Shown here: positions 1 to 16,315 of the stretch, in pieces
Layout: every line of letters starts with the position of its first letter
Position numbering within the stretch: position 1 is the stretch's first letter
Assembly (NCBI GenBank): GCA_034440135.1
Contig: JAWXBP010000164.1
Location: forward strand, 1 to 35,931
Direction: 5' to 3'
DNA: 35,931 nt
Source: Planctomycetia bacterium
GTDB taxonomy: Bacteria; Planctomycetota; Planctomycetia; Pirellulales; JALHLM01
Made by a program: the position numbers and the translations under genes
Notes under the pieces: model-generated
What the model was told of the DNA's origin: nothing
Seen by the model: the letters and a program-made list of their open reading frames with translations, nothing else
Databases searched by the model: none

Positions 1-262
1 CCTTAAAAACATAGAAGCCGGTCGTGAAATTGCGCAGCATCACATGCGCGAGGGCCTGTTCTGCTTTGCCGGCGCTGGCGCCCGTGCCGGTTTGCGCGGG
101 GAATGTTTGTTCCAGTCCGGTGGTGATGCTCCATTCGAAGAGAGGAACCTGCATCTCCTCAGCGGCCTTGCGCACAATTGCGATGGCCCGGGCTTCGTCA
201 TGCGACTCCAACGACATCAAGCCGGCGCCGGAACGGACGAGCAGTTGCAGTTGTTCGAGCAT
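1..262 (-). CDS. AAA+ ATPase, Ycf46-like, N-terminal fragment (runs off the left edge)
   Basis: An open minus-strand frame starts at the ATG at 262-260 and is still open at base 1, giving 87 residues. It begins MLEQLQLLVRSGAGLMSLES, followed by an EAR-AIVRKAAEE stretch and the phrase PLFEWSITTGL. That layout (short N-terminal helix, LVRSG, then W-S-x-T-T-G-L) resembles the N-terminal domain of Ycf46-like AAA+ ATPases, which precedes the P-loop module. The Walker motifs would lie outside the window, so ATPase activity is inferred from this resemblance only. No strong Shine-Dalgarno sequence precedes the start. It lies downstream of purD on the same strand but is separated from it by a long palindrome, so co-transcription is doubtful. 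The family call is moderately sure; the reading frame itself is convincing. Confidence 0.6.
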   Translation of the reverse strand, partial: MLEQLQLLVRSGAGLMSLESHDEARAIAIVRKAAEEMQVPLFEWSITTGLEQTFPAQTGTGASAGKAEQALAHVMLRNFTTGFYVFK

Positions 263-310
263 GGAAACTCGTCAGAAAGTTGTTTGCGGTCGCTGGCAAT
301 GAGTTTATCA

Positions 311-487
311 CACCAGCCCGTAGCGCAAGCGAGGGAGAGTGGGCGACGATGATAGCTTGACGTGTACGCCCTGCCGACCTTCCGCTTCGCGATAGACGCA
401 CTTGATTGCGAGTGAACGTTCCGCTTGGCGTATTCGATTTGACGGTCGTTAACGTCCACTCTCCCTCGCTGGCGCTACGAGCTGGTG
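311..487. repeat. Long imperfect inverted repeat, 32-nt arms
   Basis: The left arm 311-342 and the right arm 456-487 are reverse complements at 30 of 32 positions, separated by 113 nt. The right arm ends 8 nt beyond the purD stop codon, and the left arm lies about 50 nt upstream of the AAA+ gene start. No clear T-run follows either arm. A REP-like or MITE-like intergenic palindrome, possibly acting at the purD 3' end, is the likely reading. The spacer holds no recognisable gene. Confidence 0.8.
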
Positions 488-494
488 TTTGCGG

Positions 495-1793
495 CTATTC
501 CGCCACGTCGGGCTGCGCGTAGAGGAGCGCCTTGTCGGAGATATCCTTGCGGCACCAGGCGCCTTCCCAGCGGATTTTTTTTACCGCGGTGTAGGCCTGC
601 AACTTGGCGGCCGAAACGGAATTGCCGAGCGCCGTCACGCCCAGCACGCGGCCGCCGCTGGTCATCACACGGCCGTCGGACGTGGCCGTGCCAGCGTGGA
701 AGACTTTCACGTCCGGCACCTGCGCGGCGTCTTCGAGACCGCGGATCGCCTTCCCGGTAACGTATTTGCCGGGGTAGCCTTCGCTGGCCATCACCACGCA
801 CAGGCTGGGCCGATCGTCCCACACGGGAGGTTCAATGGAATCGAGACGGCCGTCGGCGACCGCTTCCAGCAGTTCGACCAGATCGCTTTTCAATCGCAAC
901 AACAGCGGCTGGCACTCGGGATCGCCGAAGCGGACGTTGTACTCCAGCACTTTGGGCCCTTGATTGGTGATCATCAGCCCAGCGTACAGCACGCCGCGAA
1001 ACGGCCGGCGCGCACGCTTCATCGCGTGCACTGTGGGCACGAGCACATGCTCCTCAATCCAGCGGAGCATCTGGTCGGTCACCAGCGGCGTGGGGCAATA
1101 AGCGCCCATGCCACCCGTGTTCGGTCCGCGGTCGCCGTCGAAGGCCGGCTTATGATCCTGGCACGCCGGCAAGGTGAGAATCGTGCGGCCATCGGTCAGC
1201 GCTAGTACGCTGGCCTCGTGCCCGTCGAGCCGTTCTTCGATGACGATCGACTTGGCGGCCTCGTCAAACTCTCGCGAGCGCGACAGGGTCTCGACAGCCG
1301 CCAGTGCTTCCGCGCGGCCAGAGCAGACGAAGACGCCCTTGCCGGAGGCCAAGCCATCGGCTTTCACCACGACCGGCACGTCTTCGCGGTCGGTGAGAAA
1401 TGTGGACGCGCGTTCCGCGCTGCGGAACACCTGGTAGTCGGCCGTGGGGACGTCAGCGTTCCGCAGGAGTTCCTTGCAGAAGACCTTGCTGCCCTCCAGT
1501 TCGGCGGCCGCCTTGTTGGGCCCAAAGACTCGCAGGCCTTCGGCTTGGAACGCGTCGACAATGCCGGCCGCCAACGGCCCTTCCGGGCCGACGACGGTGA
1601 GGCCGACCTGATTTTCCTTGGCGAAACTGATCAGCCGTCGGAAATCGTTGACCCGGATATCGACGTTCTCGGCGTCCAGCGCCGTGCCGGCGTTGCCCGG
1701 CGCGACGAACACGCGGTCGGCCCGAGGGCTTTGCTTGAGCTTCCAGGCCAAGGCGTGCTCGCGCCCGCCGTTTCCGATGACGAGGATGTTCAT
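495..1793 (-). CDS. purD: Phosphoribosylamine--glycine ligase (GAR synthetase)
   Basis: This cytosolic ATP-grasp enzyme joins glycine to 5-phosphoribosylamine, the second step of de novo purine synthesis. From the ATG at 1793 the protein has 432 residues, normal for PurD. The N-terminal Rossmann-like signature GNGGREHA is at residues 7-14. The ATP-grasp region carries KADGLASGKGV near 144-154, the loop GDRGPNTGGMGAY lies at about 220-232, and the family signature RFGDPECQ is at 288-295. An upstream TTG at 1817 would add eight residues, but the family starts right at M-x-x-L-V-I-G-x-G, so the ATG is preferred. No clear Shine-Dalgarno sequence is seen at either start. It stands alone, with palindromes on both sides and no other purine genes nearby. 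Identification is very secure. Confidence 0.97.
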   Translation of the reverse strand: MNILVIGNGGREHALAWKLKQSPRADRVFVAPGNAGTALDAENVDIRVNDFRRLISFAKENQVGLTVVGPEGPLAAGIVDAFQAEGLRVFGPNKAAAELEGSKVFCKELLRNADVPTADYQVFRSAERASTFLTDREDVPVVVKADGLASGKGVFVCSGRAEALAAVETLSRSREFDEAAKSIVIEERLDGHEASVLALTDGRTILTLPACQDHKPAFDGDRGPNTGGMGAYCPTPLVTDQMLRWIEEHVLVPTVHAMKRARRPFRGVLYAGLMITNQGPKVLEYNVRFGDPECQPLLLRLKSDLVELLEAVADGRLDSIEPPVWDDRPSLCVVMASEGYPGKYVTGKAIRGLEDAAQVPDVKVFHAGTATSDGRVMTSGGRVLGVTALGNSVSAAKLQAYTAVKKIRWEGAWCRKDISDKALLYAQPDVAE

Positions 1794-1850
1794 GATTGCG
1801 GTCGTGTGATCAGCCAAAGGGACCGCGAAACTTCAGCGCGGCGAATGATA

Positions 1851-1880
1851 ATCTTACGGCGAGCCCGTTCCGGCAAGCAA
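1851..1880 (-). promoter_or_regulatory. Possible sigma-70-like promoter for purD
   Basis: Read on the minus strand there is TTGCTT (1880-1875), an 18-nt spacer and TAAGAT (1856-1851), about 58 nt upstream of the purD ATG. It is a partial match to the consensus in the expected place, but planctomycete promoters are poorly defined, so this is tentative. Confidence 0.35.
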
Positions 1881-1902
1881 GGAGACGCGGCCACGCGAAC
1901 GG

Positions 1903-2010
1903 ACTGTGGGAGGCGTCTCCGACGCCGATGCGCAGGACGTGGTTCAGCTCGGCGGCATCGATCGGTACAGCAGAGTTCTCTCCATCGGCGTCGGAGACGC
2001 CTCCCACAGT
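1903..2010. repeat. Intergenic palindrome, family copy 1 (28-nt perfect arms)
   Basis: Arms 1903-1930 and 1983-2010 are perfect reverse complements with a 52-nt spacer. The arm core (GTGGGAGGCGTCTCCGACGC) recurs in a second palindrome at 11318-11417 that has the same spacer length. It sits between the Gfo/Idh terminator and the purD promoter region. No open frame or transposase is associated, so it looks like a non-autonomous dispersed palindromic element. Confidence 0.85.
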
Positions 2011-2037
2011 CAAATTGCGATACCTTGTGATTCTAAA

Positions 2038-2084
2038 TCAAAAACGAAAAAACGCCGCGCACCCCACTTCTGGCGTACGCGGCG
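2038..2084 (-). terminator. Rho-independent terminator of the Gfo/Idh gene
   Basis: On the minus strand, 28 nt after the Gfo/Idh stop codon, there is a 7-bp GC stem (CGCCGCG at 2084-2078 pairing with 2059-2053) with an 18-nt loop. It is followed directly by a T-rich run, GTTTTTTCG-TTTTT, read from 2054 downwards. Position, stem and U-tract all fit intrinsic termination. Confidence 0.75.
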
Positions 2085-2112
2085 CTGATTTCACAGGCTC
2101 AAACGGAACGAC

Positions 2113-3420
2113 CTAGCCGTCGATCGTATAGCCGTCGCGGTAGACATTCTTGATGATGCTGTCGACCTCGGGGGCGTTGGTCGCTTTGAGATTCTTGGCA
2201 TCCCATTCGATCTTCTTCCCGTCCGCCCAGACGGCTAGGTTGCCGAGCAGGATGGTTTCTGAGAGCGGGCCGGCGTAGTCCGAGAAATTGCTCATCGCCT
2301 GCTCGCCACCGCGAATGGCGTTGACCCATTCGTCAAAGTGACCGGGCGACTTCTTGAACTCCACGTCCTTCATTTCGGCGTCGATCAACTCAAACTCCGC
2401 GCCGTAGTCGTTCGGCGAGTAGATCTTGCCCTGGTCGCCGACGATCAAACAGCCGCTGTCCTTCGGGGCGCGGCCTTCGCCGAACATGGCGACGTCCGGC
2501 AGCTTACCGCCGTCGTACCAGGAGACCTTGAGGGCTGGCCGAGTGTCGTTGGCGGGGAACTCGAAGTCGATGATCGACCACTTCGGATAGCTGTCCTTGT
2601 TGTGGCCGGCCGTCTTGGCGACGACCGAGGTCGGGTTCTTCAAGCCCAGGCCCATGAACGGCATGTTGAACGTGTGACACGCCATGTCGCCCAACGCGCC
2701 GGTGCCGAAGTCCCACCAGCCGCGCCACGCGAACGGATGATAACCGTTCGAGTACGGGCGATACGCCGCGGGGCCGAGCCACAGTTCCCACTTCAGATTC
2801 GAGGGAATCGGCGATTCCGCTGGGCGGGGACCGCCTTGCGGCCAGATCGGTCGGTTCGTCCAAACGTGGACTTCCTTGACTGTGCCGATCACACCGGCCT
2901 GCAGCAACGCGGCCGCCTTGCGGACGCCGTCTTCCGACGTGCCTTGATTGCCCATCTGCGTGGCGACGCCCTTCTCGCGGGCGACTTCGCCCAAGCGGCG
3001 GGCTTCGTAAATCGAGTGCGTCAGCGGCTTCTGGCAGAAACAATGCTTGCCCATGCTCATCGCCTTGTAGGCGGCGACGGCGTGGCAGTGATCGGGCGTG
3101 CTGACCGTGACGGCGTCGATCTTATCGCCCATCTTGTCGAGCATTTCGCGGAAGTCATGAAACTTCTCCGCGCTCGGGAAGCGGGCGGCGCCGGCCGCGA
3201 GGTTCTTGTCGTCAATGTCGCAGATGGCGACCATATCGCCGTTCTGGCCCGCGTCTTCGGAATCGCTCGAGCCCTTGCCCGTGACGCCGATCGACGCGAA
3301 TTGAATTTTCTCGTTCGGTGAGTTGCTCTGCGCTCGGGCGACTCCGCCGGCCGCCCAGAAGCCGACGCCCGCCAGGGCAGAGGTTTTGACAAAGGTCCGA
3401 CGGCTGGTGGGGCGCGCCAT
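2113..3420 (-). CDS. Gfo/Idh/MocA-family oxidoreductase, Tat-exported
   Basis: The 435-residue protein belongs to the NAD(P)-dependent Gfo/Idh/MocA sugar dehydrogenase superfamily; the substrate cannot be read from sequence. The N-terminus has a twin-arginine signal: S-R-R-T-F-V-K at residues 6-12, then a hydrophobic stretch and an A-R-A-Q-like cleavage region near 28-31. This suggests export of a folded, cofactor-loaded enzyme to the periplasm. The Rossmann part (about 38-160) contains VAICDID and the STPDHCHA loop. The usual E-K-P motif reads QKP at 130-132, keeping the lysine. A Gfo/Idh C-terminal domain follows, with a W-W-D-F-G-T-G-A-L-G-D-M segment. The start at 3420 is supported by AGGAG at 3434-3430, nine bases upstream. 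It appears monocistronic, with its own promoter and terminator. Such exported paralogues are abundant in Planctomycetes. Confidence 0.93.
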   Translation of the reverse strand: MARPTSRRTFVKTSALAGVGFWAAGGVARAQSNSPNEKIQFASIGVTGKGSSDSEDAGQNGDMVAICDIDDKNLAAGAARFPSAEKFHDFREMLDKMGDKIDAVTVSTPDHCHAVAAYKAMSMGKHCFCQKPLTHSIYEARRLGEVAREKGVATQMGNQGTSEDGVRKAAALLQAGVIGTVKEVHVWTNRPIWPQGGPRPAESPIPSNLKWELWLGPAAYRPYSNGYHPFAWRGWWDFGTGALGDMACHTFNMPFMGLGLKNPTSVVAKTAGHNKDSYPKWSIIDFEFPANDTRPALKVSWYDGGKLPDVAMFGEGRAPKDSGCLIVGDQGKIYSPNDYGAEFELIDAEMKDVEFKKSPGHFDEWVNAIRGGEQAMSNFSDYAGPLSETILLGNLAVWADGKKIEWDAKNLKATNAPEVDSIIKNVYRDGYTIDG

Positions 3421-3496
3421 GACAGCAGACTCCTAAGCAGGAAACGAGGCGAAAACAGCTGAGCCAAGGAAAAAGTGGCCTGGCTGGTGGGCTTAT

Positions 3497-3525
3497 ACGA
3501 TAACCTGCCGGAATAGGGTTGACAA
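3497..3525 (-). promoter_or_regulatory. Probable sigma-70-like promoter of the Gfo/Idh gene
   Basis: On the minus strand TTGTCA (3525-3520) is followed by a 17-nt spacer and TATCGT (3502-3497), placing a start of transcription about 70 nt before the ATG at 3420. Spacing is ideal and the -35 box matches 5 of 6 consensus bases. Confidence 0.5.
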
Positions 3526-3572
3526 GTTTGCCCGGGCGGAGGAAGTGGTGCAGATTGGCTCGCACGAAATGA

Positions 3573-3824
3573 CTAGCGACGACTGAGACCTGCCACAACG
3601 AATACCGCGCCACAAGCAACTATGAGAGTCGCTGAAATATAAGGGCCAGGCTTCCAAGCGGCCCACGCGGTTCCTGGCCTGGCAGAATTCGGAGAAACCA
3701 CGACTCCGTAGACGATTGCGATCAGACCTATGCAAACCATCATCCAACGCAGAAAAGGTCCACGCCGCCTTGGAGAATGGCCCGACCCGCTGGCTGGCGG
3801 TGACTTGTACGGGTTAGCGTCCAT
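3573..3824 (-). CDS. Small two-helix membrane protein of unknown function
   Basis: The 83-residue protein begins with M-D-A-N-P-Y-K-S-P-P, an opening seen in many small planctomycete membrane proteins of unknown role. A basic patch (RRRGPFLR, about 19-26) precedes a first hydrophobic helix (about 27-44). A second helix lies at about 62-79, and the protein ends in S-R-R. The segment between the helices contains two tryptophans. Both helices and the positive residues suggest an inner-membrane protein. It lies upstream of the Gfo/Idh gene on the same strand, but about 150 nt and a promoter-like sequence separate them. No domain was recognised. The start is the only ATG in the frame ahead of the conserved opening. 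Confidence 0.65.
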   Translation of the reverse strand: MDANPYKSPPASGSGHSPRRRGPFLRWMMVCIGLIAIVYGVVVSPNSARPGTAWAAWKPGPYISATLIVACGAVFVVAGLSRR

Positions 3825-4205
3825 GCCCCCGATTCTAACAGGCCCCCGAGCGCCCGGCCCGGTTTTGGCCTACTCCTGCCCCTGGGCGCTGCTATACTTC
3901 GGGTATCTGGTTTGCCGATTTCAGTTGCGGCCCCGATTTTTGCCTGGTTCTGGGGGCCGGTTCTTTCTCTCGCCATCCCGGCTTGGTGGACCACCATTTT
4001 GGTCCCTTGCTTGGCGGCCCTGATTTAGCATCGGGCCACGCGATCTGTCCGGAACGGACGGTCGATCGAAAGGCTTTTGCTCACCGCCGGTTTTTGGCGC
4101 GCTGGGTTCAGGCCTTGCTAGGCAGCACATTAGGAACAGTTCGCGATCCGCCGGACCTTTCGGCGATACGTCCCATACTCATTTTTGTCAGGATCAAGCA
4201 CCTTC
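3825..4205. other. Intergenic region with no recognised gene
   Basis: These 381 bases separate divergent genes. Much of the stretch is rich in G, T and C runs (about 3842-4020). The short open frames here look like chance frames. No convincing promoter, tRNA or terminator was found. An AGGA at 4190-4193 may serve the downstream start at 4206. Confidence 0.5.
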
Positions 4206-4430
4206 ATGATGACACTTATGCGAGACATTGATTACGCGGCCCAGGCCGTGCGCTCGGCGCTGCAACAGAAGTTTGGTCGCCAGCACGACCTCAACGAGCT
4301 CAAGGTCGACGCGCTCGACAAGACCATTCGCGTGACGCTGTCAGACCTGGACGCGGAAGGCACACGGGACGAGCTGCTGGCCGCGATTCGCAAGGCCGGC
4401 GTGCTGGAAGAGTTCTGGTCCGCGAACTAG
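4206..4430 (+). CDS. Small conserved-looking hypothetical protein
   Basis: From the ATG at 4206 the product is 74 residues (MMTLMRDIDYAAQAV then a mixed alpha/beta pattern). Helix-like residues 7-22 are followed by strand-like KVDALDKTIRVTLSDL and a C-terminal helix (EGTRDELLAAIRKAGVLEEF). An in-frame TTG at 4185 is possible, but the ATG has AGGA twelve bases upstream and is preferred; another ATG lies at 4218. The alternating polar/hydrophobic pattern and absence of low complexity suggest a real small cytoplasmic protein. No family was recognised. It precedes the DUF309 gene by about 110 nt on the same strand and could share its transcript. Confidence 0.65.
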   Translation: MMTLMRDIDYAAQAVRSALQQKFGRQHDLNELKVDALDKTIRVTLSDLDAEGTRDELLAAIRKAGVLEEFWSAN

Positions 4431-4542
4431 TCGCCATTGCGGCGCTCACCGCCGCGGCACACGGGCGTTATGGCTTCATCGTCAAGCCGGTTCTATAATC
4501 GGGCGTGTTGAGGAATTTGCGCACCCCCGGGCGGAGCTGTCG

Positions 4543-4932
4543 ATGGCCGCGGCTGAATATGACGCCCTGTACCTGCAGGGGGTCGCGTATTTCAATGATT
4601 GCGAGTTCTTCGAGGCCCATGAGGTCTGGGAAGAACTTTGGCAGGAAGATCACGGGCCCTCTCGCAAATTCATGCAGGGCCTGATCCAGGCCGCAGTGGC
4701 GTTGCATCATTTTGGCAACGGCAATATTCGCGGCGCCAAGAAGGTCTACTATGGCAGCCGCAGTTATCTGGCGGCCTACCGGCCTGTGCATATGGGCATC
4801 GACCTGGAAAAATTCATCGGCGAGATGGACCAGTGCTTCGCGGAAGTCGCCACGGCGACGGAGACGTTTCCGGAGATCACCATCAATCCGGAACTGATCC
4901 CAGAGATTCACCTCGATCCCCCGGCGGAGTAG
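4543..4932 (+). CDS. DUF309 family protein
   Basis: The 129-residue protein shows the full DUF309 signature. This is a small helical domain of unknown biochemical function found in bacteria and archaea. Diagnostic segments are FEAHEVWEELW (23-33), the FMQGLIQAAVALHH helix (43-56) and GNIRGA (60-65). Acidic and histidine residues in the first segment are the conserved ones of the family. The C-terminal tail (about 100-129) is proline- and acid-rich. A GGAG at 4533-4536, six bases before the ATG, supports the start. It lies between the 74-residue unknown and the LON-domain gene on the same strand. Neighbours do not suggest a specific role. Family assignment is confident, function unknown. Confidence 0.9.
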   Translation: MAAAEYDALYLQGVAYFNDCEFFEAHEVWEELWQEDHGPSRKFMQGLIQAAVALHHFGNGNIRGAKKVYYGSRSYLAAYRPVHMGIDLEKFIGEMDQCFAEVATATETFPEITINPELIPEIHLDPPAE

Positions 4933-5059
4933 GCTTTGCACCACGGAGTCACGGAGAGCGGAGAACTAGCGATGAGCGATGCATACCGCCGCTCAAAAAC
5001 TACTTCACTCACTACCTACTTCGCCGACTCCACCTACTAACTACTCCACCTACTCCCCT
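4933..5059 (+). other. Leader region with a pyrimidine-rich degenerate repeat
   Basis: After the DUF309 stop there is a short motif CACCACGGAGTCACGGAGAG (4939-4958). From about 5001 to 5059 follows a tract made of CTAC, CTCC and ACTA words with almost no G. Its reverse complement is built from GTAGT and GTGGAG words, very like the minisatellite at 15417-15500. It is probably a degenerate repeat, not coding, although a frame happens to run through it into the LON gene. Confidence 0.5.
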
Positions 5060-5758
5060 ATGTCCTCTGATTCGGAAAACGCGGATTTTCAAGGTTTCGC
5101 CGGTCGGACGCGGGTCTTTCCGCTGCCGAACGTGGTGTTGTTTCCGCACGTGATTCAGGCGCTGCATATCTTCGAGCCGCGCTACCGGGAGATGACCGAG
5201 GACGCGTTGGCGGGCGACAAGCTGATCACGATGGCGCTGCTCGCGCCGGGATGGGAACCGAACTACGAAGGGCGGCCCGCGTTGCAGCCGGTGGCCTGCT
5301 TGGGACGCATCGCGACGCATCACGTGTTGCCGGATGGACGCTACAACTTGTTGCTGCTGGGGTTGAAGCGCGTGCGAGTGCTCGAGGAGTTGCCAACGGA
5401 GCACAGTTTCCGCGAGGCGCTGGTGCAGGTGATCGACGACGAATACCCGCCGCAGGGCGCCGCAGAGCGGCAACGCATTCAGCGGCAACTGATGGACGGG
5501 TTTCGCCGCGCGCTGCCATTGTTGCCGGACATGCAAGAGCAAGTCGAGCAGTTCGTTTCGAGCGACGTCAGTCTCGGGATTCTGACCGACATCCTGGCCT
5601 ATTCGCTGCCGCTGTCGCTGGACGAAAAGCTGTTACTGCTCGGCGAAGCCAACGTCGACCGCCGCGCGGCCCAGTTGGCGGACTATATGCTGCGCATGAA
5701 GGGCGGGAACGAGGCCGGCAATCAGCGGGTGTATCCGCCGGAGTTTAGTGAGAATTGA
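5060..5758 (+). CDS. Stand-alone LON N-terminal (substrate-binding) domain protein
   Basis: The 232-residue protein matches the LON N-terminal substrate-recognition domain without the AAA+ or protease parts. The opening strand and loop read FPLPNVVLFP (20-29), then HIFEPRYREM (36-45), a G-R-I-A block and GRYNLLLLGLKRVRV. The C-terminal half is a helical bundle (about 125-215) with a P-L-S-L-D-E-K-L-L-L-L helix. Such proteins may present or bind substrates for Lon-like proteases, but activity is unproven. The frame extends upstream to 4979, but those 27 residues come from the low-complexity pyrimidine tract and are unlike the family. The ATG at 5060 gives the normal family start. It is the last of three plus-strand genes and converges on the ABC permease gene. 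Confidence 0.9.
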   Translation: MSSDSENADFQGFAGRTRVFPLPNVVLFPHVIQALHIFEPRYREMTEDALAGDKLITMALLAPGWEPNYEGRPALQPVACLGRIATHHVLPDGRYNLLLLGLKRVRVLEELPTEHSFREALVQVIDDEYPPQGAAERQRIQRQLMDGFRRALPLLPDMQEQVEQFVSSDVSLGILTDILAYSLPLSLDEKLLLLGEANVDRRAAQLADYMLRMKGGNEAGNQRVYPPEFSEN

Positions 5759-6032
5759 GGTAGGGTTTGAAGTGTTCAGTTTTCAGCGTGGTAGGGCGGG
5801 CCGTGCGCGAGACAGTCGCTGTCGACGAGTGCGGCGTCGCGTTCGATAAGGCGCTGCGAATCGCAAATCTAAGGCCCGCCGTTTTATTTTGAAATCGGCG
5901 GGCCTTACGTTTCGAACGAGCGCAGAGTTAGCGATGCGCGACGTCGTGCAAAAAATTGACGCAGTTCGCCCGCGCGCGGCCCGCCCTACGTCCCACTCGC
6001 TCTCCCCTCTGCCTCTCTGCGGTGAAGACGCA
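5759..6032. other. Convergent intergenic region
   Basis: This 274-base gap lies between the converging LON-domain and ABC permease genes. Besides the nested palindrome at 5791-5989 it holds a TTCAGTTTTCAG word (5774-5785) shared with 8694-8705. A pyrimidine-rich TCTCCCCTCTGCCTCTCTGC (6000-6019) lies just before the permease stop codon. No gene was found. Confidence 0.6.
5791..5989. repeat. Nested inverted repeat between convergent genes
   Basis: The outer arms 5791-5809 and 5971-5989 are reverse complements at 18 of 19 positions (core GGGCGGGCCG). Inside is a perfect 12-bp stem, 5870-5881 with 5896-5907, and a 14-nt loop containing TTTTATTTT. The arms share the word GGCCCGCC with the inner stem. 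The element lies between two gene 3' ends and may act as a bidirectional terminator or a REP-like element. No good U-tract follows the inner stem. Confidence 0.75.
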
Positions 6033-7712
6033 CTAACCGTTGGCGGGTTGGCCGTCGTCCCAGGGGTTTTTGCGGAGTGGCTCGGCGCTGGGTTGGAGCG
6101 ATTTGTCGTCTTCGACGACGCGGCGCGGTTTGGAAGCGCGAACTTGTTGCACTTCGCGGGCGATGGTCGGCAGGTTGAGCAACACGATCAATCCGGTCGG
6201 TAAACCGAGCAAGGCCAAGACCGCGAGCTGTTGGCTGATCGGCAGACTGTCTTCCGACATTTCCATCAGCGTCCAGAACGGGTTGCTGGCTTCGACGAGC
6301 GAGTATTCGCTGCGCCAGAACGGTTCCATCAAGTGGATGCTGAGCGGGATCCCGCAGCCAAGGAGAATCAGCAGGATGGTCACCAGCAGCGACATGAACA
6401 TGGTCCCCCAGCCGGCGCGGCGCAGCAGGAGCATGATCAGTCGCGTCAGTCCGAGATAGCCGGCCAGGTACAGGAACATCACCATGCCGAAGGTCAGCGG
6501 ATTGAAGTCTTTCATCCACGTGACCGTCATCGACTGGGTGTAGCTGGCCGGCGCGGCCTGCTGCCAGATCATTTCGGCAATAACGGTCAGCACCACCAAC
6601 GCCAGGTAGCTGCCGAGCGCAAAGACATATCCAGAGCCGGAGCCGGGGTTAAACCAGGTGAAGAAGGCGCGGCCGAGGAAGCTTTGCGGCAGTTGGCGGC
6701 GGACTCGGAGCGAGAGCTCGCCGGCTTCGCCGACCATGAACGCGCCCATCACGGCCCAATGGATGCCGGAAAACGTAAGGAGCAGCACAAAGAAAGCTCG
6801 TTCTTCGGACAGGTAGATGCCGTACGTCATCCAGCCCAGGAAGAGCAGTTGTTGGAACAGCATCACCACGCGGAGCTTGGTGCTGCGATTGTTGCTGGGG
6901 AAATCGAGTTGGGCCGAGGAGGCCTGCACGACGAGTGCGAAGTAGCCCCAGAACACGCTCAGCACGGCAAGATTGCCGATCCAGAATTCCGGATCGCTAA
7001 TTGCAATGCCGTTGAATTCGGCGATGTTGACCGCCGCCATGGACGCGATGAAGAATACCAACAGTAGTCCAGCGACCATGAAGACGGACAATACGACTTG
7101 CCAGTGCCGTTCGCTGGTGGCCGTGGCCACGAGCAGACCGATCGCCGAGAGCCCCAGCGAACCGTGGAACATATAGAACATCACCATCCCGATCAGAGGG
7201 ATGTCGATGCCGCGCAGTAGGTACGTGAACGCCAGACACGGAGCGAGCGCGGAATAGTAGACCAGCATCTGCAACATGGCGCTGGCGAGCTTGCCGGTGA
7301 TGACATGCCGCGGCGTGAGCGTGGTGACGGAGAGCAGTTCATACGTGCCGTCGGCGCGCTCCGTGGCCAGCGACCAGAAGGCGCTGAACGGCACCACGAC
7401 GAGAAGCGCGAAATTCAGAATGACAAAATATCCGCCGAACAAGAATAAGCCCGACGAGCCGTAGTAGATGCTCGGGCCGACCACCGCCACGCCGAGCATG
7501 GTCCAACCCCAGGCGGCCGCCAGCACTAGCGTGAACGTGACCGTGAACTGCCGACTTTTGAGCGCCTGGCGGGCTTCTTTCACCAGGATCGGGTTCAAAC
7601 GCTGATTGATCGCCGTCACGGCGCGGTCGAGCAGGCCCCACAGGCCGGAGTCCGGCCGCGACTCGTCCTCGATTACTTCGACAGCGGTAATGGCTTCTTC
7701 GAGGGTGCTCAT
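6033..7712 (-). CDS. ABC-2-type transporter permease
   Basis: The 559-residue integral membrane protein is the likely partner of the ABC ATPase encoded just upstream (16-nt gap). A cytoplasmic N-terminus (1-60) contains the NPILVKEARQALKSRQF segment typical of ABC-2 permeases. About twelve hydrophobic segments follow in two groups (roughly 57-285 and 290-510), separated by polar stretches. The ERADGTYELLSVTTLTPRH loop after the second helix is the coupling-type segment common in this class. The C-terminal 50 residues are charged and proline-containing, so probably cytoplasmic. The substrate cannot be deduced. The order exported protein, ATPase, permease suggests one export or envelope-remodelling complex, vaguely reminiscent of gliding-type ABC systems; that parallel is inference. 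Confidence 0.85.
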   Translation of the reverse strand: MSTLEEAITAVEVIEDESRPDSGLWGLLDRAVTAINQRLNPILVKEARQALKSRQFTVTFTLVLAAAWGWTMLGVAVVGPSIYYGSSGLFLFGGYFVILNFALLVVVPFSAFWSLATERADGTYELLSVTTLTPRHVITGKLASAMLQMLVYYSALAPCLAFTYLLRGIDIPLIGMVMFYMFHGSLGLSAIGLLVATATSERHWQVVLSVFMVAGLLLVFFIASMAAVNIAEFNGIAISDPEFWIGNLAVLSVFWGYFALVVQASSAQLDFPSNNRSTKLRVVMLFQQLLFLGWMTYGIYLSEERAFFVLLLTFSGIHWAVMGAFMVGEAGELSLRVRRQLPQSFLGRAFFTWFNPGSGSGYVFALGSYLALVVLTVIAEMIWQQAAPASYTQSMTVTWMKDFNPLTFGMVMFLYLAGYLGLTRLIMLLLRRAGWGTMFMSLLVTILLILLGCGIPLSIHLMEPFWRSEYSLVEASNPFWTLMEMSEDSLPISQQLAVLALLGLPTGLIVLLNLPTIAREVQQVRASKPRRVVEDDKSLQPSAEPLRKNPWDDGQPANG

Positions 7713-7728
7713 ACGTTCCAGGTCATTG

Positions 7729-8667
7729 TCATTGCACGTGTCCGCGCGTGACGTCGAGAAAGACTTCTTCCAGGCTTTTGTCCTGCGAACCGAAGGCCGC
7801 GACGGCGAAGCCGGCCTGGACCATTTCTTTCAATAGCAAGACTTCCGCCTGACGATCGCCGTCGTGGAGGAAGATCGCGCTTTCGCCGCTGATTTCGACG
7901 CTATGGACGCCGTCGCGCGCGGAGAGCCATTCGCCCAGTGCGGCCGCGCCGCCCAGAATCTGCGTTTGCACGCGCGCCTGGTGCTGCTGCGTTTTTTGAA
8001 TGTCGTTCACCGAGCCGACGGCGAGCAAGCGGCCCAGTTCGATGATGCCAACCGTGTCGCACATCTCGGCCAGTTCGGTGAGGATGTGCGAACTGATGAG
8101 CACGGTTTTGCCATGCGCGGCAAGGGCGCGGATCATTTCGCGGAGCTGAATTCGCGCGCGGGGGTCGAGACCCGCGGCCGGCTCGTCGAGAACCAGCACG
8201 GCGGGGTTGTGAATCAACGCCCGCCCCAGGCAGAGCCGTTGCTTCATGCCCTTCGACAATCCGCTGATGGGCTTTTCGGCCAATGTGTCGAGTTTGGTGA
8301 AGCTCATCACGTAGCTCAACGACCGGGTGCGATCCTTGCCGCGGAGGCCATACGCTCGGGCGAAGAAATCGAGGTATTCACGGACGTTCACATTGGCATA
8401 GGTGCCGAAGTAGTCCGGCATGAAGCCCAGGCGGTAACGCACGCGATCCGGATCGTTGACGACGGAGAAACCGTCGATGTAGGCATCGCCGGCGGTGGGC
8501 TGGTCGAGCGTAGCGAGAATCCGCATGCTAGTCGTCTTGCCAGCGCCGTTTGGTCCGATGTATCCGAACACATGTCCCTTCGGCACGCTGAACGAAATAT
8601 CGTTCACGGCGCGCGTACTCCCGAACGTGCGGTGCAAGTTTCGCAGTTCGATCATGGGGTGGGACAT
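7729..8667 (-). CDS. ABC transporter ATP-binding protein
   Basis: The 312-residue cytoplasmic ATPase powers the adjacent ABC-2 permease. Visible motifs are Walker A GPNGAGKTT (38-46), signature LSKGM (137-141), Walker B VLVLDEP (157-163) and the H-loop histidine at 194 (SSH). The usual Q-loop glutamine appears to be replaced: the segment reads GFMPDYFGTY (81-90), with Asp where Gln is expected. The C-terminal 90 residues form the extra domain seen in ABC-2 exporter ATPases. The first ATG at 8667 is used here; a second ATG four codons later (8655) is possible, and neither has a clear Shine-Dalgarno. It sits 79 nt after the large exported protein gene and 16 nt before the permease gene, consistent with an operon. 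Confidence 0.93.
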   Translation of the reverse strand: MSHPMIELRNLHRTFGSTRAVNDISFSVPKGHVFGYIGPNGAGKTTSMRILATLDQPTAGDAYIDGFSVVNDPDRVRYRLGFMPDYFGTYANVNVREYLDFFARAYGLRGKDRTRSLSYVMSFTKLDTLAEKPISGLSKGMKQRLCLGRALIHNPAVLVLDEPAAGLDPRARIQLREMIRALAAHGKTVLISSHILTELAEMCDTVGIIELGRLLAVGSVNDIQKTQQHQARVQTQILGGAAALGEWLSARDGVHSVEISGESAIFLHDGDRQAEVLLLKEMVQAGFAVAAFGSQDKSLEEVFLDVTRGHVQ

Positions 8668-8746
8668 GGGAGCTAGTTTGAAGTTTTCAGGGTTCAGTTT
8701 TCAGTGGGAACTTGCGCCGCCTAGCATTTTCATGCATCATTCTCCC

Positions 8747-10915
8747 TCACCAGGTTCCGTGGATGACGTGGAGGGGGAGCTCCTGCTGGACGGTTTCGAC
8801 GCCGTAGTCGAGTTCCGGGGATTGGTCGACGATGGCCAGGTAGTTTCGCGGAGTGAGCAGCGTTGGCGTGGTCATCGCTCCGGCGGCGTTCGCGAGCGAC
8901 TTTTCCAGAATGCCGTCTGATTGCGAGGCGGGCACATTGCTCTGTCCGTAGTAATACACGCGCGAGCTCCCAAACGAATTCTCGGTGAGTTGCACGTCTT
9001 GCATTTGGACGGGCGCGCGGTCGGCGAAGTACCGGCGAATCTCTGGCAGGTCCTCTTCCGTGATTTCCTTCAATTGGCAGGCGGACCCTTTCGCGGTTTC
9101 ACCGCACTTGAAGAGTCGGCCTTGTTCGTCGCACATCACCAAATGCAGAAGGTTCCCGCCCAAAGCATTCACGACGGCCGGCGGCGCATTTTCCGTGGAG
9201 GGCGTGATGCGCAGCCCATTGGTCGTGGGGCGCGTTCGCATCAAGAGGAATTGCGTCGGCGTGCGCGAGGCGAGCCAGCCGCTGGCGAGGCGCTGGCGAT
9301 TTCCTTCCCACTCGAAATCGCGCCGGGTCCAGGCCATCCCTTGCGAAACTTTCGGATCAATCGGCTGAATCATCGTATCGTCTTCGAACTCCAGGCCGTC
9401 CGAGGGCGACAGGCCCGCGTAATACGTAACGCGCGATGTGCTGGCGGCCTGACGCCTGGCCTGGTCGATCGACGTGAACGAACGCGGACGGACGCGGACT
9501 TGGAGGCCGTCGGTCAACAAGGCGTAGCCGAACAGGCTCGCGGTGACGACGATCGCGGTGATCGGCACTACCGCTAACAGCAGGTGCAGTTTTCCTTTGC
9601 GGCGCAGCCAGTAGTAGTTGATCGGACCAATAGCCAGCACAAAGCCGGTGATCAATACGCGAAACGCGGTCACCGGGGCGCGGCCGACGCCGGGAATCAT
9701 CTGCTTCCAGAAATCGGGATTGTCGTCCGTCGTCGACAACCCGAGCCGCTTGCGCGACAAGATGCGGTCGGCGCCTACGGTGTTCGTGGCCCAGACCCAA
9801 TTGGCGACGTCTTCGGACGATGGCGGATTCGCGCCAATCGGCTTGTCGTCATGGAATACCAACACCATTCCCAGCTGCGCAGGGCGCGTGCGGAATGGCG
9901 GCGCTTTCGGCGGTGGCAACGACAAATTCGGCGGCGTTTCGCCGGTGATCGATTCATTCGCCGTCGCCGGCGCGCCGGGCATACTGTAGTCGACTGAGCG
10001 GGAAACGGCGAAAGCGCTATCCAACCCTTGGGCGAACTTATTTACGTCCGCATCTTTCCACGGCTCGGCGTGCGGCCCCCAGAGCCCCGTGCGCTCTTCG
10101 ATTTCGGCCAGGCGCTCCCAGTTCGCGCCGGCGCCCCAGATCCAGAGATTCCCGCCCGCGGACGTCGCCTGGCAAATCGCTTGAAGCGCTTCGGGCCGCG
10201 TGTCGGCGAGTTTCTTGAGCTCGTTGACGTGCAGGCAAATCACGTCCGGCGAGGTGTAGTCCACCCAGCGTTTCGGCAGGCTCGCGCCGGGTATCTGCGT
10301 GAACAGTTCCGTCGGATACTGCGCGCGGCCGTTGATGGTGCTGGTCGAGAGATTGCCGTAGGCCACTGCGCCCTGCTGATTGGCGCGCGCTAAGTCCATC
10401 GCTTCGGTCAGCAGCGACGTATCGACAGCCTGATCCGAGATGCAAAGAAACGACGGCAGGCTGAGACCCGACCCAAAAGCGTACAAATTGCCGGTCGAAG
10501 CGTAATTGTCCAGCTTATCCAGATGCCGCCCGCCCTCGTAGATCTTGAATTGCTGGTTGACCCACAATTCCGTCTGTGGCGCTGTGATCACGACTTCCCC
10601 GGAGCGGGAACCGGCGGGAATGGTCAATCGCTCGCTGGTGGTCGTGAACTTGCGGCCGTTGTAGTCCTGGTTTTCAATTTCGATCGTGAATTCCCGATCG
10701 TTGCCGGTCACCTTGCCGGAACGCAACAGGACGCGGACAGGCCGATAGCCTTGCCCGAGCGGCCAGCCGTTTTGGCCTTCGAAGACGTAGCCGTCGCCAC
10801 GCGATTGCGCCACGCCATATTGCGTCTGCGCCGCAAGCTGCGCGGAATACCAGGGCGCGCACGCGAGGGCCAGGAATAGCACGGCCCGGCGAACGAAGGT
10901 GGTCGCGAAGCTCAT
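8747..10915 (-). CDS. Large exported membrane-anchored protein of unknown function, ABC-associated
   Basis: The 722-residue protein has an N-terminal signal peptide (basic F-V-R-R, hydrophobic core about 10-27, A-A-Q end). A large extracytoplasmic domain follows (about 30-405), starting with beta-rich segments. Two adjacent transmembrane helices lie at about 411-470, around the phrase GPINYYWLRRKGK, and a second soluble domain of about 250 residues ends the protein. The G-P-x-N-Y-x-x-L-R-R loop recurs in large bacterial membrane proteins of unknown role that accompany ABC-2 transporters. It starts 12 nt after the 87-residue membrane protein and ends 79 nt before the ABC ATPase, so it is probably the extracytoplasmic component of the same system. 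No catalytic motif was recognised. Confidence 0.85.
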   Translation of the reverse strand: MSFATTFVRRAVLFLALACAPWYSAQLAAQTQYGVAQSRGDGYVFEGQNGWPLGQGYRPVRVLLRSGKVTGNDREFTIEIENQDYNGRKFTTTSERLTIPAGSRSGEVVITAPQTELWVNQQFKIYEGGRHLDKLDNYASTGNLYAFGSGLSLPSFLCISDQAVDTSLLTEAMDLARANQQGAVAYGNLSTSTINGRAQYPTELFTQIPGASLPKRWVDYTSPDVICLHVNELKKLADTRPEALQAICQATSAGGNLWIWGAGANWERLAEIEERTGLWGPHAEPWKDADVNKFAQGLDSAFAVSRSVDYSMPGAPATANESITGETPPNLSLPPPKAPPFRTRPAQLGMVLVFHDDKPIGANPPSSEDVANWVWATNTVGADRILSRKRLGLSTTDDNPDFWKQMIPGVGRAPVTAFRVLITGFVLAIGPINYYWLRRKGKLHLLLAVVPITAIVVTASLFGYALLTDGLQVRVRPRSFTSIDQARRQAASTSRVTYYAGLSPSDGLEFEDDTMIQPIDPKVSQGMAWTRRDFEWEGNRQRLASGWLASRTPTQFLLMRTRPTTNGLRITPSTENAPPAVVNALGGNLLHLVMCDEQGRLFKCGETAKGSACQLKEITEEDLPEIRRYFADRAPVQMQDVQLTENSFGSSRVYYYGQSNVPASQSDGILEKSLANAAGAMTTPTLLTPRNYLAIVDQSPELDYGVETVQQELPLHVIHGTW

Positions 10916-10927
10916 CGTCGGATTCCC

Positions 10928-11191
10928 TTAGGGATTCAGAGGGGCAAAGGGAGATCGCCCTTCCGGCGTGCGACTCCGCGTGAGGGTTCGCAAGAGCGCA
11001 GAAACGAGCCAGACCAGAAAAAACAGCCAGGCATAGACGGCCAGGAACACGGCGAGCCCGGCCATGCCGGCGGTGACGCCGACGGCCCAGGCGCTGCCTT
11101 GCGTGGCGCTCCGCACGACCACGAGCGCAGAGCCCGCCAGAGCGGTGCCGCCCAGCACCCAGCGCAATGAGTAACGAGGAAAGAGCATCAT
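10928..11191 (-). CDS. Small two-helix membrane protein, first gene of the ABC operon
   Basis: The 87-residue product opens M-M-L-F-P-R-Y-S-L-R-W, similar to many short planctomycete membrane proteins. Two hydrophobic segments lie at about 11-26 and 36-66, the second long and tryptophan-containing. A basic tail (T-R-S-R-T-P-E-G-R) ends the protein, probably in the cytoplasm. Either of two adjacent ATG codons (11191, 11188) could start it. The next gene begins 12 nt after its stop, so the two are almost certainly co-transcribed. No family was recognised; it may be an accessory subunit of the transporter. Confidence 0.65.
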   Translation of the reverse strand: MMLFPRYSLRWVLGGTALAGSALVVVRSATQGSAWAVGVTAGMAGLAVFLAVYAWLFFLVWLVSALLRTLTRSRTPEGRSPFAPLNP

Positions 11192-11474
11192 CGGTTCTGT
11201 TCGTCAGCGGAGCAGTGTTCTTGAATCGCTACGAGGCGCAGAACGTCAGATTACTAGAAAACCCGAGGTCGTGTCTATTCTTTGGCCCGGCAAAATAGGG
11301 CGAAACCGTTTTCGACCGTGGGAGGCGCCTCCGACGCCGATGGAGAAGGCTTCGCCGACGACGCACGGCCTGTTCGGCAAAAAGCGATGAACGATCGGCG
11401 TCGGAGACGCCTCCCACACGCCGAGATGGGCGCGTCGGTAGATGGACGCGGCAGAAGCGCGAGACGCCGTGGCC
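11192..11474. other. Intergenic region between the coiled-coil gene and the ABC operon
   Basis: This 283-base region contains the second copy of the 24-28-nt-arm palindrome (11318-11417). On the ABC-operon side it has a weak promoter-like pair, TAGACA (11277-11272), an 18-nt spacer and TAATCT (11253-11248), on the minus strand. Otherwise nothing was recognised. Confidence 0.5.
11318..11417. repeat. Intergenic palindrome, family copy 2
   Basis: Arms 11318-11341 and 11394-11417 pair at 23 of 24 positions around a 52-nt spacer. The arm sequence is the same as in the 1903-2010 element, and the spacer length is identical although the spacer sequence differs. It lies downstream of the coiled-coil gene and upstream of the ABC operon promoter region. 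Confidence 0.85.
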
Positions 11475-13736
11475 TTAGCCCTGCGGGCCGTCTTTCAGGC
11501 CGAGGCGTTCCAACCAGCGGCCGCGCTTGGGCTCCTTCGCCGCGGCGTTGGCCGCGGGAGTCTGGGCGCCCATCGTAGCGCTGCGCTCCTCGAGGACGCG
11601 GAGTTTTTCCTCCAAGTCGGAACGTTCGCGGGCTAGCTTGGCGCGTTCCACGGAGATTTCCACTTCCGCGGTCCGCATCTTGCCTTCCCATTCGGTCTGC
11701 AACTGGCGAGCCCGTTCGCGCTCGTGCTGGATGACTTCGTCGGATTCGATGAGCTGGGCGATCGCGGAAGCGCCGACCGCGACGTTGCCGATGTTGCTGC
11801 TTTGTTCTTCGAGCAGCTTGCGCAGCTCGGCGATTTCCTGGTCCTTGTCAGCGACGACCGAATCGGTGATGTCCAGCGTGCCTTGGATTGTCAGGCGCTC
11901 ACGGGCTTGCTCCGCGTCGCCGTCGTCATACTCTTCCAGCATGGCGAGCATGCGGAGCTTCTGCGCCTCCCAATCCATGCCGGCGCCGGACGGGGCGGGA
12001 GTGCCGCCATTCTTGCGGGAGATGGCGAGCTTCTGTTCCAACTCCGCGGCGCGGGCTTTCTCCTCGCGAACGTCTTCCATCGCCAATTCGTAGCGGCGCT
12101 CCAGCGCGTGAATCCGTTCGGCGACGTCTTCGTCAACTGCCGCCACCGCCGGCGGCGCCTCTTCCAGTCGCTCTTGGAGTTCCGCACATTGCGCGATCAA
12201 TTTGGTGCGGGCATCGAGCAGTCCGCTGAGCTGTTCTGTGAGATTCGCGTTTTCCGTCCGCAATGACGCCACTTCTTCGGTGGCATGACTCGCCGAGCTG
12301 GCCTGTTCGCGGAGTTGTTCGAGCTGTCGGGCAACGTCCGCGGCTTGCGTTTCGGCGGCCTGTTGTGCAGCGAGCGCCTGTTTCGCGGCGGCTTCCGCAT
12401 CGGCGAATCGTTTGGCGAGCTCCTGTTGCGCTTGTTGATCCCCGGCGCCTGAGGCCTTGGCGCGGGCGAGGTCGCGCTCCAGCGATTGCACGCGCGAGGC
12501 CGCTTGGGCGGTTTCGCGGTCGAATTCCGCTTTGACATTAAGGAGCGCCGAGTCAAGTTCCTCGCAGCGCCCATGCAAGCGAGCGTGTTCGCTGGCCGCC
12601 TGTTGTTCGGCGGCGCGGAATTTGGCGAGCTCTTCGGTCAGAGCCGCGGCCTCGGCCTTCGCGGATTGGAGTTCGGCGGCCTGTGTTTGAACGGTCTGTT
12701 CCAGCCGTTCCTGCAGTTGGCGGCGTTCTTGTTCAGCTTGCTGGAGCTTCGCTTGTAGTTCGGCGACCGCTTGCGCCTGGACACTGGAATCCGCCAGCGC
12801 GCGACGGGCTTGTTCGACATCGCCTTGCAGGCTGGAGACGTCCGTGGCGAGCCGATCGCGTTCGACGGCAATCCCGTCGCGCTCTGCTTTGAGGCGATCG
12901 CGTTCAACGGCTAGCCCGTCGCGTTCCGCAGACAGGGAACGGAGTGATTCTTGCGCCGCGCTTGCGGCGGCCGTGAGTTGTTCGCGCTCCTTCGCCGTTT
13001 CGTCCTGACGTTGCCGCGCGGCCTCGACGGCCGTGCGCAGCTCATCGCGTTCCGCCGCGAGGCTTGCCGACGCTTCTTGATCGTGTTTCAGTTCGCCACG
13101 CAGGCCATTCAGCTCGGCGCGGATGCTGTCGAGCTCCGCCGGCAACGGACGTAGCGGTTCCAGTTCGCGCAGAGCCTGGTCGCGTTCTTCGGACCGGGCT
13201 TGCAGCTGCACCGCAAGTTGATCGCGCTCGGCTTGAAGTTTTTCGCGTTCCGCCTGCAATTGCACGAGGCCGTCGCGCATCGAGGCGATTTCGGCCACCG
13301 CGGAATCGTCGAGCTTCACTTTGTCTTGCTGGCGCTGTTCGACCAACGTGCGGCGTTGCGCACGGACGCGTCCTGCAATTCGCCTGGCTCGGGCGGCGAT
13401 CGCGGCGCGGTCTTTGATCAGCGTGTCGTTGAGTTCCAAAAGTTGCGAGTCGCGGCGTTCGATCTCGGCCAGCCGCGCTTCCAACTCCGCCCGGGTCTGC
13501 TCGGCGGTTGTGCCTTGTTGCTCGGCTTGAGTCAACTTGCCCTGCGCGTCTTGCCGGAGTTCGTCGAGCGATTGCGCGATTTTTTCGACGCGCGCGCACA
13601 AGTCGCCTTCCAAATCTTGTATGCGCTGGCGGCGGCGGGCGCCGAATTCCTGGAGCCTGGCGCGTTGCTCCGCGAGCACGGCGACGAAATCGTCGTCGAC
13701 GGAATCCGAAGGGGATGAGGGGAGATGTGCGTCCAT
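11475..13736 (-). CDS. Long coiled-coil protein
   Basis: The 753-residue protein is dominated by heptad-type, Glu/Gln/Arg/Ala/Leu-rich sequence from about residue 20 to 700, with few prolines or aromatics. The N-terminus (1-17) is short and acidic. A helix-breaking patch near 535-545 (EAPPAVAAVDED) and another near 590 (NGGTPAPSGAGMDWEAQ) split the rod. The segment around 610-670 (TIQGTLDITDSVVADKD, then NIGNVAVGASAIAQLIESDE) is less repetitive and may be a specific binding region. The C-terminus is basic (K-R-G-R-W-L-E-R-L-G-L). No signal peptide or membrane helix was seen, so a cytoplasmic structural or scaffold role is plausible. SMC or Rad50 heads are absent. A promoter-like sequence at 13865-13893 would drive it. 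Function is unknown. Confidence 0.85.
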   Translation of the reverse strand: MDAHLPSSPSDSVDDDFVAVLAEQRARLQEFGARRRQRIQDLEGDLCARVEKIAQSLDELRQDAQGKLTQAEQQGTTAEQTRAELEARLAEIERRDSQLLELNDTLIKDRAAIAARARRIAGRVRAQRRTLVEQRQQDKVKLDDSAVAEIASMRDGLVQLQAEREKLQAERDQLAVQLQARSEERDQALRELEPLRPLPAELDSIRAELNGLRGELKHDQEASASLAAERDELRTAVEAARQRQDETAKEREQLTAAASAAQESLRSLSAERDGLAVERDRLKAERDGIAVERDRLATDVSSLQGDVEQARRALADSSVQAQAVAELQAKLQQAEQERRQLQERLEQTVQTQAAELQSAKAEAAALTEELAKFRAAEQQAASEHARLHGRCEELDSALLNVKAEFDRETAQAASRVQSLERDLARAKASGAGDQQAQQELAKRFADAEAAAKQALAAQQAAETQAADVARQLEQLREQASSASHATEEVASLRTENANLTEQLSGLLDARTKLIAQCAELQERLEEAPPAVAAVDEDVAERIHALERRYELAMEDVREEKARAAELEQKLAISRKNGGTPAPSGAGMDWEAQKLRMLAMLEEYDDGDAEQARERLTIQGTLDITDSVVADKDQEIAELRKLLEEQSSNIGNVAVGASAIAQLIESDEVIQHERERARQLQTEWEGKMRTAEVEISVERAKLARERSDLEEKLRVLEERSATMGAQTPAANAAAKEPKRGRWLERLGLKDGPQG

Positions 13737-13864
13737 ACCAAACTTACCTGACTGCTGAATCGGAGCGCGGTCCCGCGGCGTCCGCGCGCCGCCCGCCCAT
13801 CCAGGCGCGACGCGTACCGCCTAGGCAGCGCAGGCCGATCTCCGTCGGCTACGCCCCTAGAGTT

Positions 13865-13893
13865 TCTATAGGTCACGCTCCGCACGGGGTCAA
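13865..13893 (-). promoter_or_regulatory. Sigma-70-like promoter of the coiled-coil gene
   Basis: On the minus strand TTGACC (13893-13888), a 17-nt spacer and TATAGA (13870-13865) match the housekeeping consensus at 5 of 6 and 5 of 6 positions. Transcription would start near 13858, leaving a leader of about 120 nt before the ATG at 13736. It is the best promoter match in the window. Confidence 0.6.
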
Positions 13894-14075
13894 AGCGAGA
13901 CGTCCGGTTGTACGCATCGTGCCGTTCGACCGGCATGACGGCGGCAGCCGACGCGGTCCCGCGGACCTCGGTTTCCCTTTTCGGCCTGAGGGGGCTAAAC
14001 TGTCGCTACCCCGGCCAGCGGCTTCGCGTCCGCCGCTCGGCCCGCGTGGTTACATTTTTCCGTTCCGAAAGGGTG

Positions 14076-14080
14076 AAGGA
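14076..14080 (+). promoter_or_regulatory. Ribosome-binding site fixing the GTG start of the CorC-like gene
   Basis: AAGGA ends eight bases before the GTG at 14089. It supports this non-ATG start, which also places the first membrane helix right at the N-terminus as expected for the family. Confidence 0.6.
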
Positions 14081-14088
14081 CCGTCCAG

Positions 14089-15417: not shown

Positions 15418-15500
15418 TGGGAGGAGTAGTGGGAGGAGTAGTGGGAGGAGTAGTGGGAGGAGTAGTGGGAGGAGTAGTGGGAGGAGTAGTGGGAGGAGTA
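15408..15500 (+). repeat. 12-bp minisatellite beginning at the CorC-like stop codon
   Basis: Seven perfect tandem copies of GTGGGAGGAGTA occupy 15417-15500, preceded by a partial copy (15408-15416) that encodes the last two glutamates and the first bases of the stop codon. Since 12 is a multiple of three, each unit repeats TAG in the gene's frame, giving eight in-frame stops (reading W-E-E-stop). A purine-rich decayed tail runs on to about 15530. Confidence 0.95.
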
Positions 15501-16295: not shown

Positions 16296-16315
16296 TGCGT
16301 TTCATCCGGACGTTT

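Follow-up and report, generated by a model that had tools for sequence, protein, structure and literature searches.

The closest described counterparts of the palindromes analysed here are the GI/PF1 REPINs of P. fluorescens SBW25, extragenic inverted doublets of REPs with diverse spacers, a preferred distance of 71 bp and a RAYT gene flanked by REPs. The PF1 REP, GTGGGAGGGGGCTTGCCCCCGAT, is laid out as a GTGG tag, GA, a short stem-loop and a GAT tail (PMC3116915, PMC3686654). The GTAG-1 and GTAG-2 REPs are set apart from other families by two unpaired bases that follow the tag and by a conserved 3-nt motif at the opposite end, and GTAG REPs have already been reported in the PVC superphylum, R. 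baltica included (PMC3733652). E. coli REPs belong to GTAG-3, which lacks the two-base gap seen in GTAG-1/2 (PMC3733652), and lie beside the Y1 HuH transposase TnpAREP in an arrangement termed REPtron (PMC6006769).

The family described below shares with the SBW25 REPINs the succession of GTGG tag, GA, short hairpin and GAT tail, the inverted doublets (here mostly at 76-78 bp), the extragenic location, the diverse spacers and, in relatives, a RAYT flanked by REPs. It differs in its planctomycete stem and loop, GGCGTC-TCC-GACGCC, in that a cognate RAYT was not found in the genome under study, in that the ends are kept at orthologous sites and in that some loops are inverted between species. With GTAG-1 and GTAG-2 REPs it has in common a tag, two unpaired bases, a stem-loop, a 3-nt tail and head-to-head homo- and heterodimers, although the tag here is GTGG; it may overlap with a family already described from planctomycetes (PMC3733652). 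The likeness to TnpAREP lies in a Y1 HuH transposase beside its own REPs, whereas the sequences are distant. The family is one of REPINs of GTAG-1-like layout with an identified RAYT group in relatives, and its population in the genus studied is apparently orphaned.

The window, that is, the whole stretch of DNA analysed, comprises 35,931 nucleotides and is one contig of a 7.29-Mb draft genome in 534 contigs (G000). Copy 1 is a perfect palindrome at 1902..2011, with arms of 29 nt each (1902-1930 and 1983-2011, complementarity 100%) and 52 nt between them; as a single strand it is predicted to fold into one long hairpin (-43.5 kcal/mol, z -9.3). Arm comparison delimits within it a left REP arm on the plus strand, GTGGGAGGCGTCTCCGACGCCGAT, at 1906..1929, which consists of the tag GTGG (1906-1909), GA, the stem-loop GGCGTC-TCC-GACGCC and the tail GAT and by itself folds as ......((((((...))))))..., followed by the spacer (1930..1983) and an identical right arm, inverted, on the minus strand (1984..2007). 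In copy 2, a palindrome with 24-nt arms of 96% complementarity and 52 nt between them, the left arm (11318..11341, plus strand) carries one change, GGCGCC for GGCGTC, by which one stem pair is lost, while the right arm (11394..11417, minus strand) has the consensus sequence; the spacer occupies 11342..11393. An earlier note on this DNA had described conserved arms around an exact 52-nt spacer of different sequence. The arm sequence is indeed identical in kind in both copies, and the two spacers do not align, scoring -4 in the same direction and -2 inverted, no more alike than shuffled spacers (best-of-two mean -4.7, sd 3.2, maximum 9). The figure of 52 nt holds for each palindrome by its own pairing, but once both are set to the 24-nt arm register that they have in common, the spacer of copy 1 measures 54 nt and that of copy 2 measures 52 nt; "exactly 52" as a fixed length was thus a register effect, copy 1 having been measured by its longer perfect pairing. 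Neither palindrome had a match at E<=0.5 in an Rfam scan of window positions 1-20000.

The window has other repetitive features. A palindrome at 15532-15722 has arms that match the Rfam Acido-Lenti-1 RNA (RF01687) with 48 and 41 bits on opposite strands; what is listed there as an "RNA" family may in fact be one arm of a dispersed palindrome. Positions 310-488 form a palindrome of a further family (CAGCCCGTAGCGCAAGCGAGGGAGAGTGG..), with similar ones in the sister species G001 (loci L251, L253, L263 and L078); in the last three of these, the arm extends into GGAGTTGACG/GGAGTGGACG/AGAGTGGA, near the inner motif of the family studied here. A tandem 12-nt repeat, GGAGGAGTAGTG, occupies 15384-15515, and a single 6483-aa open frame that contains 297-nt repeats runs along the minus strand at 16316-35767.

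Both copies belong to a dispersed family. A 21-nt core of the copy 1 arm has 128 matches in G000 at up to three mismatches (62 forward, 66 reverse), as against one for the reversed pattern (0 forward, 1 reverse), a control that excludes a chance origin of the palindromes. Pairs were assembled from the window and 59 stretches around the first 100 of the 128 matches, with arms accepted at <=4 mismatches; this set is incomplete, loci lacking any exact arm being mostly left out, and 16 further arms with a 4-nt loop are additional to it, two of which (C126 and C135) are partners in fetched loci. The loci examined contain at least 54 head-to-head inverted pairs, with GTGG ends facing outward, and 8 single arms, two of which do have a partner, with one extra base in its loop; tail-to-tail pairs are absent among the G000 arms listed. 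Start-to-start distances fall within 70-81 in 52 of the 54 pairs (44 and 66 in the other two), most commonly at 76 and 78 (15 pairs each), and spacers measure 46-57 nt in 52/54. The family is thus neither confined to two copies nor random in spacer length, the two outcomes that the earlier note had named as contrary to its reading. The constant element size that it proposed stands as a narrow range; it is not exact and varies between genomes, with distances of 65 in 13 of 17 pairs in Lacipirellula limnantheis, 47 in 36 of the 48 pairs in the JPNG MAG and 64 in another 8 of them, and 59-60 in all four pairs of Botrimarina colliarenosi. Even distances outnumber odd ones in G000 (41 versus 13 among the 54 pairs, which as copies are non-independent, so that descent may account for this).

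The arms of the G000 pairs deviate from the consensus at 1.5% of sites. Outside them there is strong conservation of CT and partial conservation of a G at -4, and inside them GGAG..G.CG is partly conserved. As to a direct target-site duplication, as in a classical MITE, only CT/AG is conserved beside the arms, and element-free sites have diverged too far at the junction for a duplication to be delimited. The spacers were also compared for a constant difference between their left and right sides, with an unconvincing result (669.7 against a null mean of 635.3 and a maximum of 671.2 in 60 nulls).

Analyzing the arms themselves, we found the layout of tag, unpaired GA, 6-bp hairpin GGCGTC/GACGCC and GAT tail, with the two unpaired bases, hairpin and 3-nt tail of GTAG-1-like REPs and a tag that agrees with the GT[AG]G of REPs and REPINs (G 105, T 105, G 106 and G 106 in 108 arms). 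In 286 arms from several genomes, double stem changes preserve pairing within the arm in 69 of 71 arms (a count of arms rather than of independent events, 62 of the 69 stemming from two change types common to many arms), and one-sided changes break it 29 times and keep it 10 times. Because the stems covary within arms, the hairpin inside each arm is the constrained structure, the part kept by compensatory change. Heterodimers lead to the same distinction. At least two stem columns distinguish one arm from the other in 48/48 pairs examined in the JPNG MAG and in 16/17 pairs in L. limnantheis, combining, for example, GGCGTC..GACGCC with GGCCTC..GAGGCC or GGGGTC..GACCCC. Stem cells are paired within arms in 567/576 cases versus 467/576 between arms in the former genome, and in 197/204 versus 168/204 in the latter. 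The earlier suggestion that arm pairing matters is therefore unsupported as worded, since heterodimers lose pairing between arms and keep it within them, and long arm-arm pairing is ruled out as the conserved unit; in folding, a composite example of a heterodimer can still form one long hairpin.

Extended by a T to 25 nt, the arm has exact matches in 112 stretches of the genome collection, all 112 of them planctomycete, including L. limnantheis, which carries 60 arms at <=2 mismatches, and B. colliarenosi. Among 56 relatives, only G001, of the same genus, has many copies (36 at <=1 mismatch), and two others have one each.

The transposase side of the system was found in relatives. G000 encodes four RAYT-like proteins, two of them above the model cut-off, and one IS200-like protein, and those of its RAYT loci that were scanned, some with flanks cut by contig ends, are without arms of this family alongside. 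From 32 RAYT-family hits in 10 genomes, 24 loci were scanned for tagged hairpins within 450 bp, and only that of Botrimarina bears arms of this family. An ungapped arm scan of all 32 hits had given none at <=4 mismatches and one at 5 (L224); it missed the Botrimarina locus because the arms beside that RAYT have one more loop base. This B. colliarenosi RAYT (L227) has GTGGGAGGCGTCTCCAGACGCCGAT on both sides in inverted orientation. Its protein scores 113 bits against REP_Tyr_transpos (cut-off 80), matches Y1_Tnp and weakly matches PDB entry 4er8, "TnpArep" (E 0.0011), which is from E. coli. With L227 as the query and E<=1e-20 defining the group, such a RAYT is present in 8 of 396 genomes of the order, taken as Pirellulales and counting the query's own genome. 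All eight have tagged hairpins of the same layout near the RAYT, on both sides in six. One member (L291) has the exact arm of the window on both sides, the only one in the group to do so, and another (L288) has arms on both sides that are one base off; in the remaining members the arms depart from it in stem or loop, with one close arm each at L290 and L293. No RAYT of this group was found at E<=1e-20 in G000 or G001, drafts of 96% and 83% completeness, where the best weak hits have E 2.5e-6 and 0.007, and a search of L. limnantheis with L227 gave no match at E<=0.01.

A RAYT group flanked by REPs of the same layout, the arm layout and the within-arm covariation together identify the family as REPINs and bear out the earlier note's proposal of a RAYT-linked mobile palindrome. 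We therefore read each palindrome as a REPIN, two REPs head to head around a free loop, and assign a probability of about 0.82 to this explanation as a whole, including the orphaned state, the maintenance in place and the flipping of loops discussed below. The cognate RAYT is likely missing from both G000 and its sister G001, which would leave the REPIN population there orphaned. Loss of a RAYT with its REPs remaining is a possibility discussed in PMC3686654, and the missing RAYT therefore does not bar membership of the REPINs. Mobility in the window's own genome, where the search returned no cognate RAYT, is suggested by the relatives. Going by the RAYT literature, the transposase would bind the hairpin of each arm in single-stranded DNA, cut at the tag and move the doublet in trans.

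Orthologous sites in G001, which is 83-92% identical to G000 at long matches in common, allow arms, spacers and flanks to be compared. Matching through flanks yielded 11 arm-bearing loci, eight of which have both arms in both species. In these eight, arms stay near consensus, with differences at 6 of 384 sites, and scarcely drift, in contrast to the spacers, which drift about like the nearby flanks: spacers are identical in 322/426 columns (76%, with gaps counted and the better orientation taken), and flanks in nine pairs are 75% identical at 0-20 bp, 84% at 20-50 and 88% at 50-200 with gaps omitted, or 61, 72, 82 and 85% in four bins with gap columns counted. A neutral divergence of only 12% would predict 48 arm differences where 6 are observed (P about 3e-15), in a set ascertained with bias through at least one near-perfect arm per genome; taking only the less intact arm of each element, which lessens this bias without removing it, 10/384 sites are off consensus. 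This comparison, like that of loop orientation, covers one species pair and eight loci. Decay occurs as well, with one arm lost at L015 and degraded arms around a well-kept spacer at L257.

Separately from the eight doublets, which were found by their arms, 33 G001 sites were located by their flanks (one further 49-bit match was dropped). The same family is near intact at one (L046), decayed at one (L034), a relic at one (L064) and present as a variant with a 4-nt loop at two (L014, L018). Seven sites, among them that of window copy 2, have another palindrome, ten have none, and six, including that of window copy 1, are ambiguous. At the remaining five (L241, L250, L260, L266, L267), the G001 contig stops shortly before the element site, as if palindromes break assembly. 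Five of the other-family palindromes are complete (L244, L246, L251, L253, L261) and two are cut by contig ends (L242, L263). We make no claim of a replacement hot spot, as long inverted repeats are not more frequent at such sites (7 of 19, five of the seven being of other families) than in other gaps (5 of 9, p 0.43). One element-free site, L245 (the orthologue of L036), reads ..CCGTGGG|GCCACCGG.., where five bases of the arm start may remain, or match by chance; such a remnant resembles the outcome of the asymmetric excision described for SBW25 (PMC3116915).

The RAYT-like and IS200-like genes of G000 and the ten palindrome-free sites among the 33 would also fit a population that is still mobile, in which an unassembled RAYT or another RAYT-like protein of G000 copies perfect-armed elements in trans. 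We regard this as doubtful: the scanned RAYT loci of that genome are without these arms, the best-scoring of 1378 pairs among 53 G000 spacers is identical at 46/56 positions, with no recent copies seen, and arms are near perfect also at old sites common to both species.

Comparing the spacers at the eight orthologous doublets, we further noted that in four, with the flanks as reference, the G001 spacer aligns best with its G000 counterpart when the latter is reverse-complemented. The scores were 17, 32, 26 and 7, where shuffled spacers reached at most 1, 0, 2 and 4, with the orthologue ranking 2 (tied), 1, 1 and 2 among 54 G000 spacers. The inversion is clear at L078/L020, where the left flank is nearly identical up to the arm. 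At L080/L027 and L073/L017 no spacer outscores the orthologue, but paralogues score as well or almost so (L080/L027 lies in a subfamily whose other members score almost equally), and at L085/L048 the inversion is weak; at L080/L027 and L085/L048, another copy may instead have inserted the opposite way round. Three retained elements found later (L237, L248, L257) have the same orientation, each at rank 1, and a fourth (L239) is weakly inverted at rank 3, which brings the inverted spacers to 5 of 12 retained elements. Flipping of the spacer in place is therefore supported by the alignments, though not proven; it would be produced by the identical inverted arms, through recombination with each other or through template switching. 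Plastid trnH-psbA palindromes likewise have a loop between short inverted repeats that flips between related lineages, but they are local and not a dispersed family with a transposase (PMC2903610). Titles and abstract openings from a literature search whose scope excluded most subscription journals contained nothing on REPIN loop inversion or on this family.

Exchange between arms bears on gene conversion, between copies or between the arms of one copy, as a selection-free means of keeping arms alike. At L248/L018, where the spacer is orthologous (rank 1 of 54), the loop of both arms is TCC in G000 but TCCC in G001, a joint change that speaks for exchange between arms, and among 28 arms with a 4-nt loop, 20 form 10 matched pairs, 2 face an arm with a 3-nt loop and for the other 6 no partner is listed; recombination between arms would, moreover, flip the loop too. 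At L083/L019, however, the compensated variant GGCGAC..GTCGCC persists in one arm only in both species, which conversion should erase and which speaks against full homogenisation, and arm-to-arm conversion alone cannot hold arms to the family consensus. Gene conversion as the full account is thus rather unlikely. The G001 locus L248 also has an insert of about 800 bp between left arm and spacer.

The elements are mostly intergenic, with 47 of the 54 G000 elements between genes, 5 within genes and 2 at an edge, whereas random placements are 83% genic (gene positions come from a simple in-house gene finder). Host transcription terminators or mRNA-protecting hairpins, with arms kept for stopping or protecting transcripts, are a rival reading: the hairpins are strong in folding, arms are kept at orthologous sites, 34 neighbouring genes have their 3' end facing the element at a median of 29 bp past the stop codon, and convergent neighbours are more frequent than in random intergenic placements (11% versus 3%). 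Yet, of the 47 intergenic elements, 18 have divergent neighbours, 24 tandem ones and only 5 convergent ones, neither window copy has a T run beside its arm, and REPs of this layout adjoin a transposase group. Given the orientations of neighbouring genes in particular, we do not favour a terminator role, which we consider improbable. An invertible switch, with a site-specific recombinase acting on the arms, is highly implausible: spacer orientation differs at 4/8 orthologous sites, but the at least 54 copies are dispersed, their loops have little in common, their arms covary as REP hairpins, and RAYT genes adjoin them in relatives.

Under the preferred reading as orphaned REPINs, the arms seem to be kept in place without their transposase, with a loop that drifts and sometimes flips. 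They would be kept by purifying selection that acts on their hairpins, and not by new rounds of transposition. More tentatively, these REPINs may have outlived their transposase and been domesticated as chromosomal sites, no longer a replicator, with hairpins selected for a host role and loops flipped by arm recombination. What is new here is that arms are maintained in place although no cognate RAYT is detectable, and that the loop is inverted. Whether the functions of REPs are local accidents or the reason for their presence is stated as unclear in PMC8049555. The two sister planctomycetes offer a direct test of this question, because arms that are no longer copied can be held only by selection or conversion. 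If it proves general, loop inversion would be an easy marker of recombination at REPINs and would alter how their spacers should be aligned.
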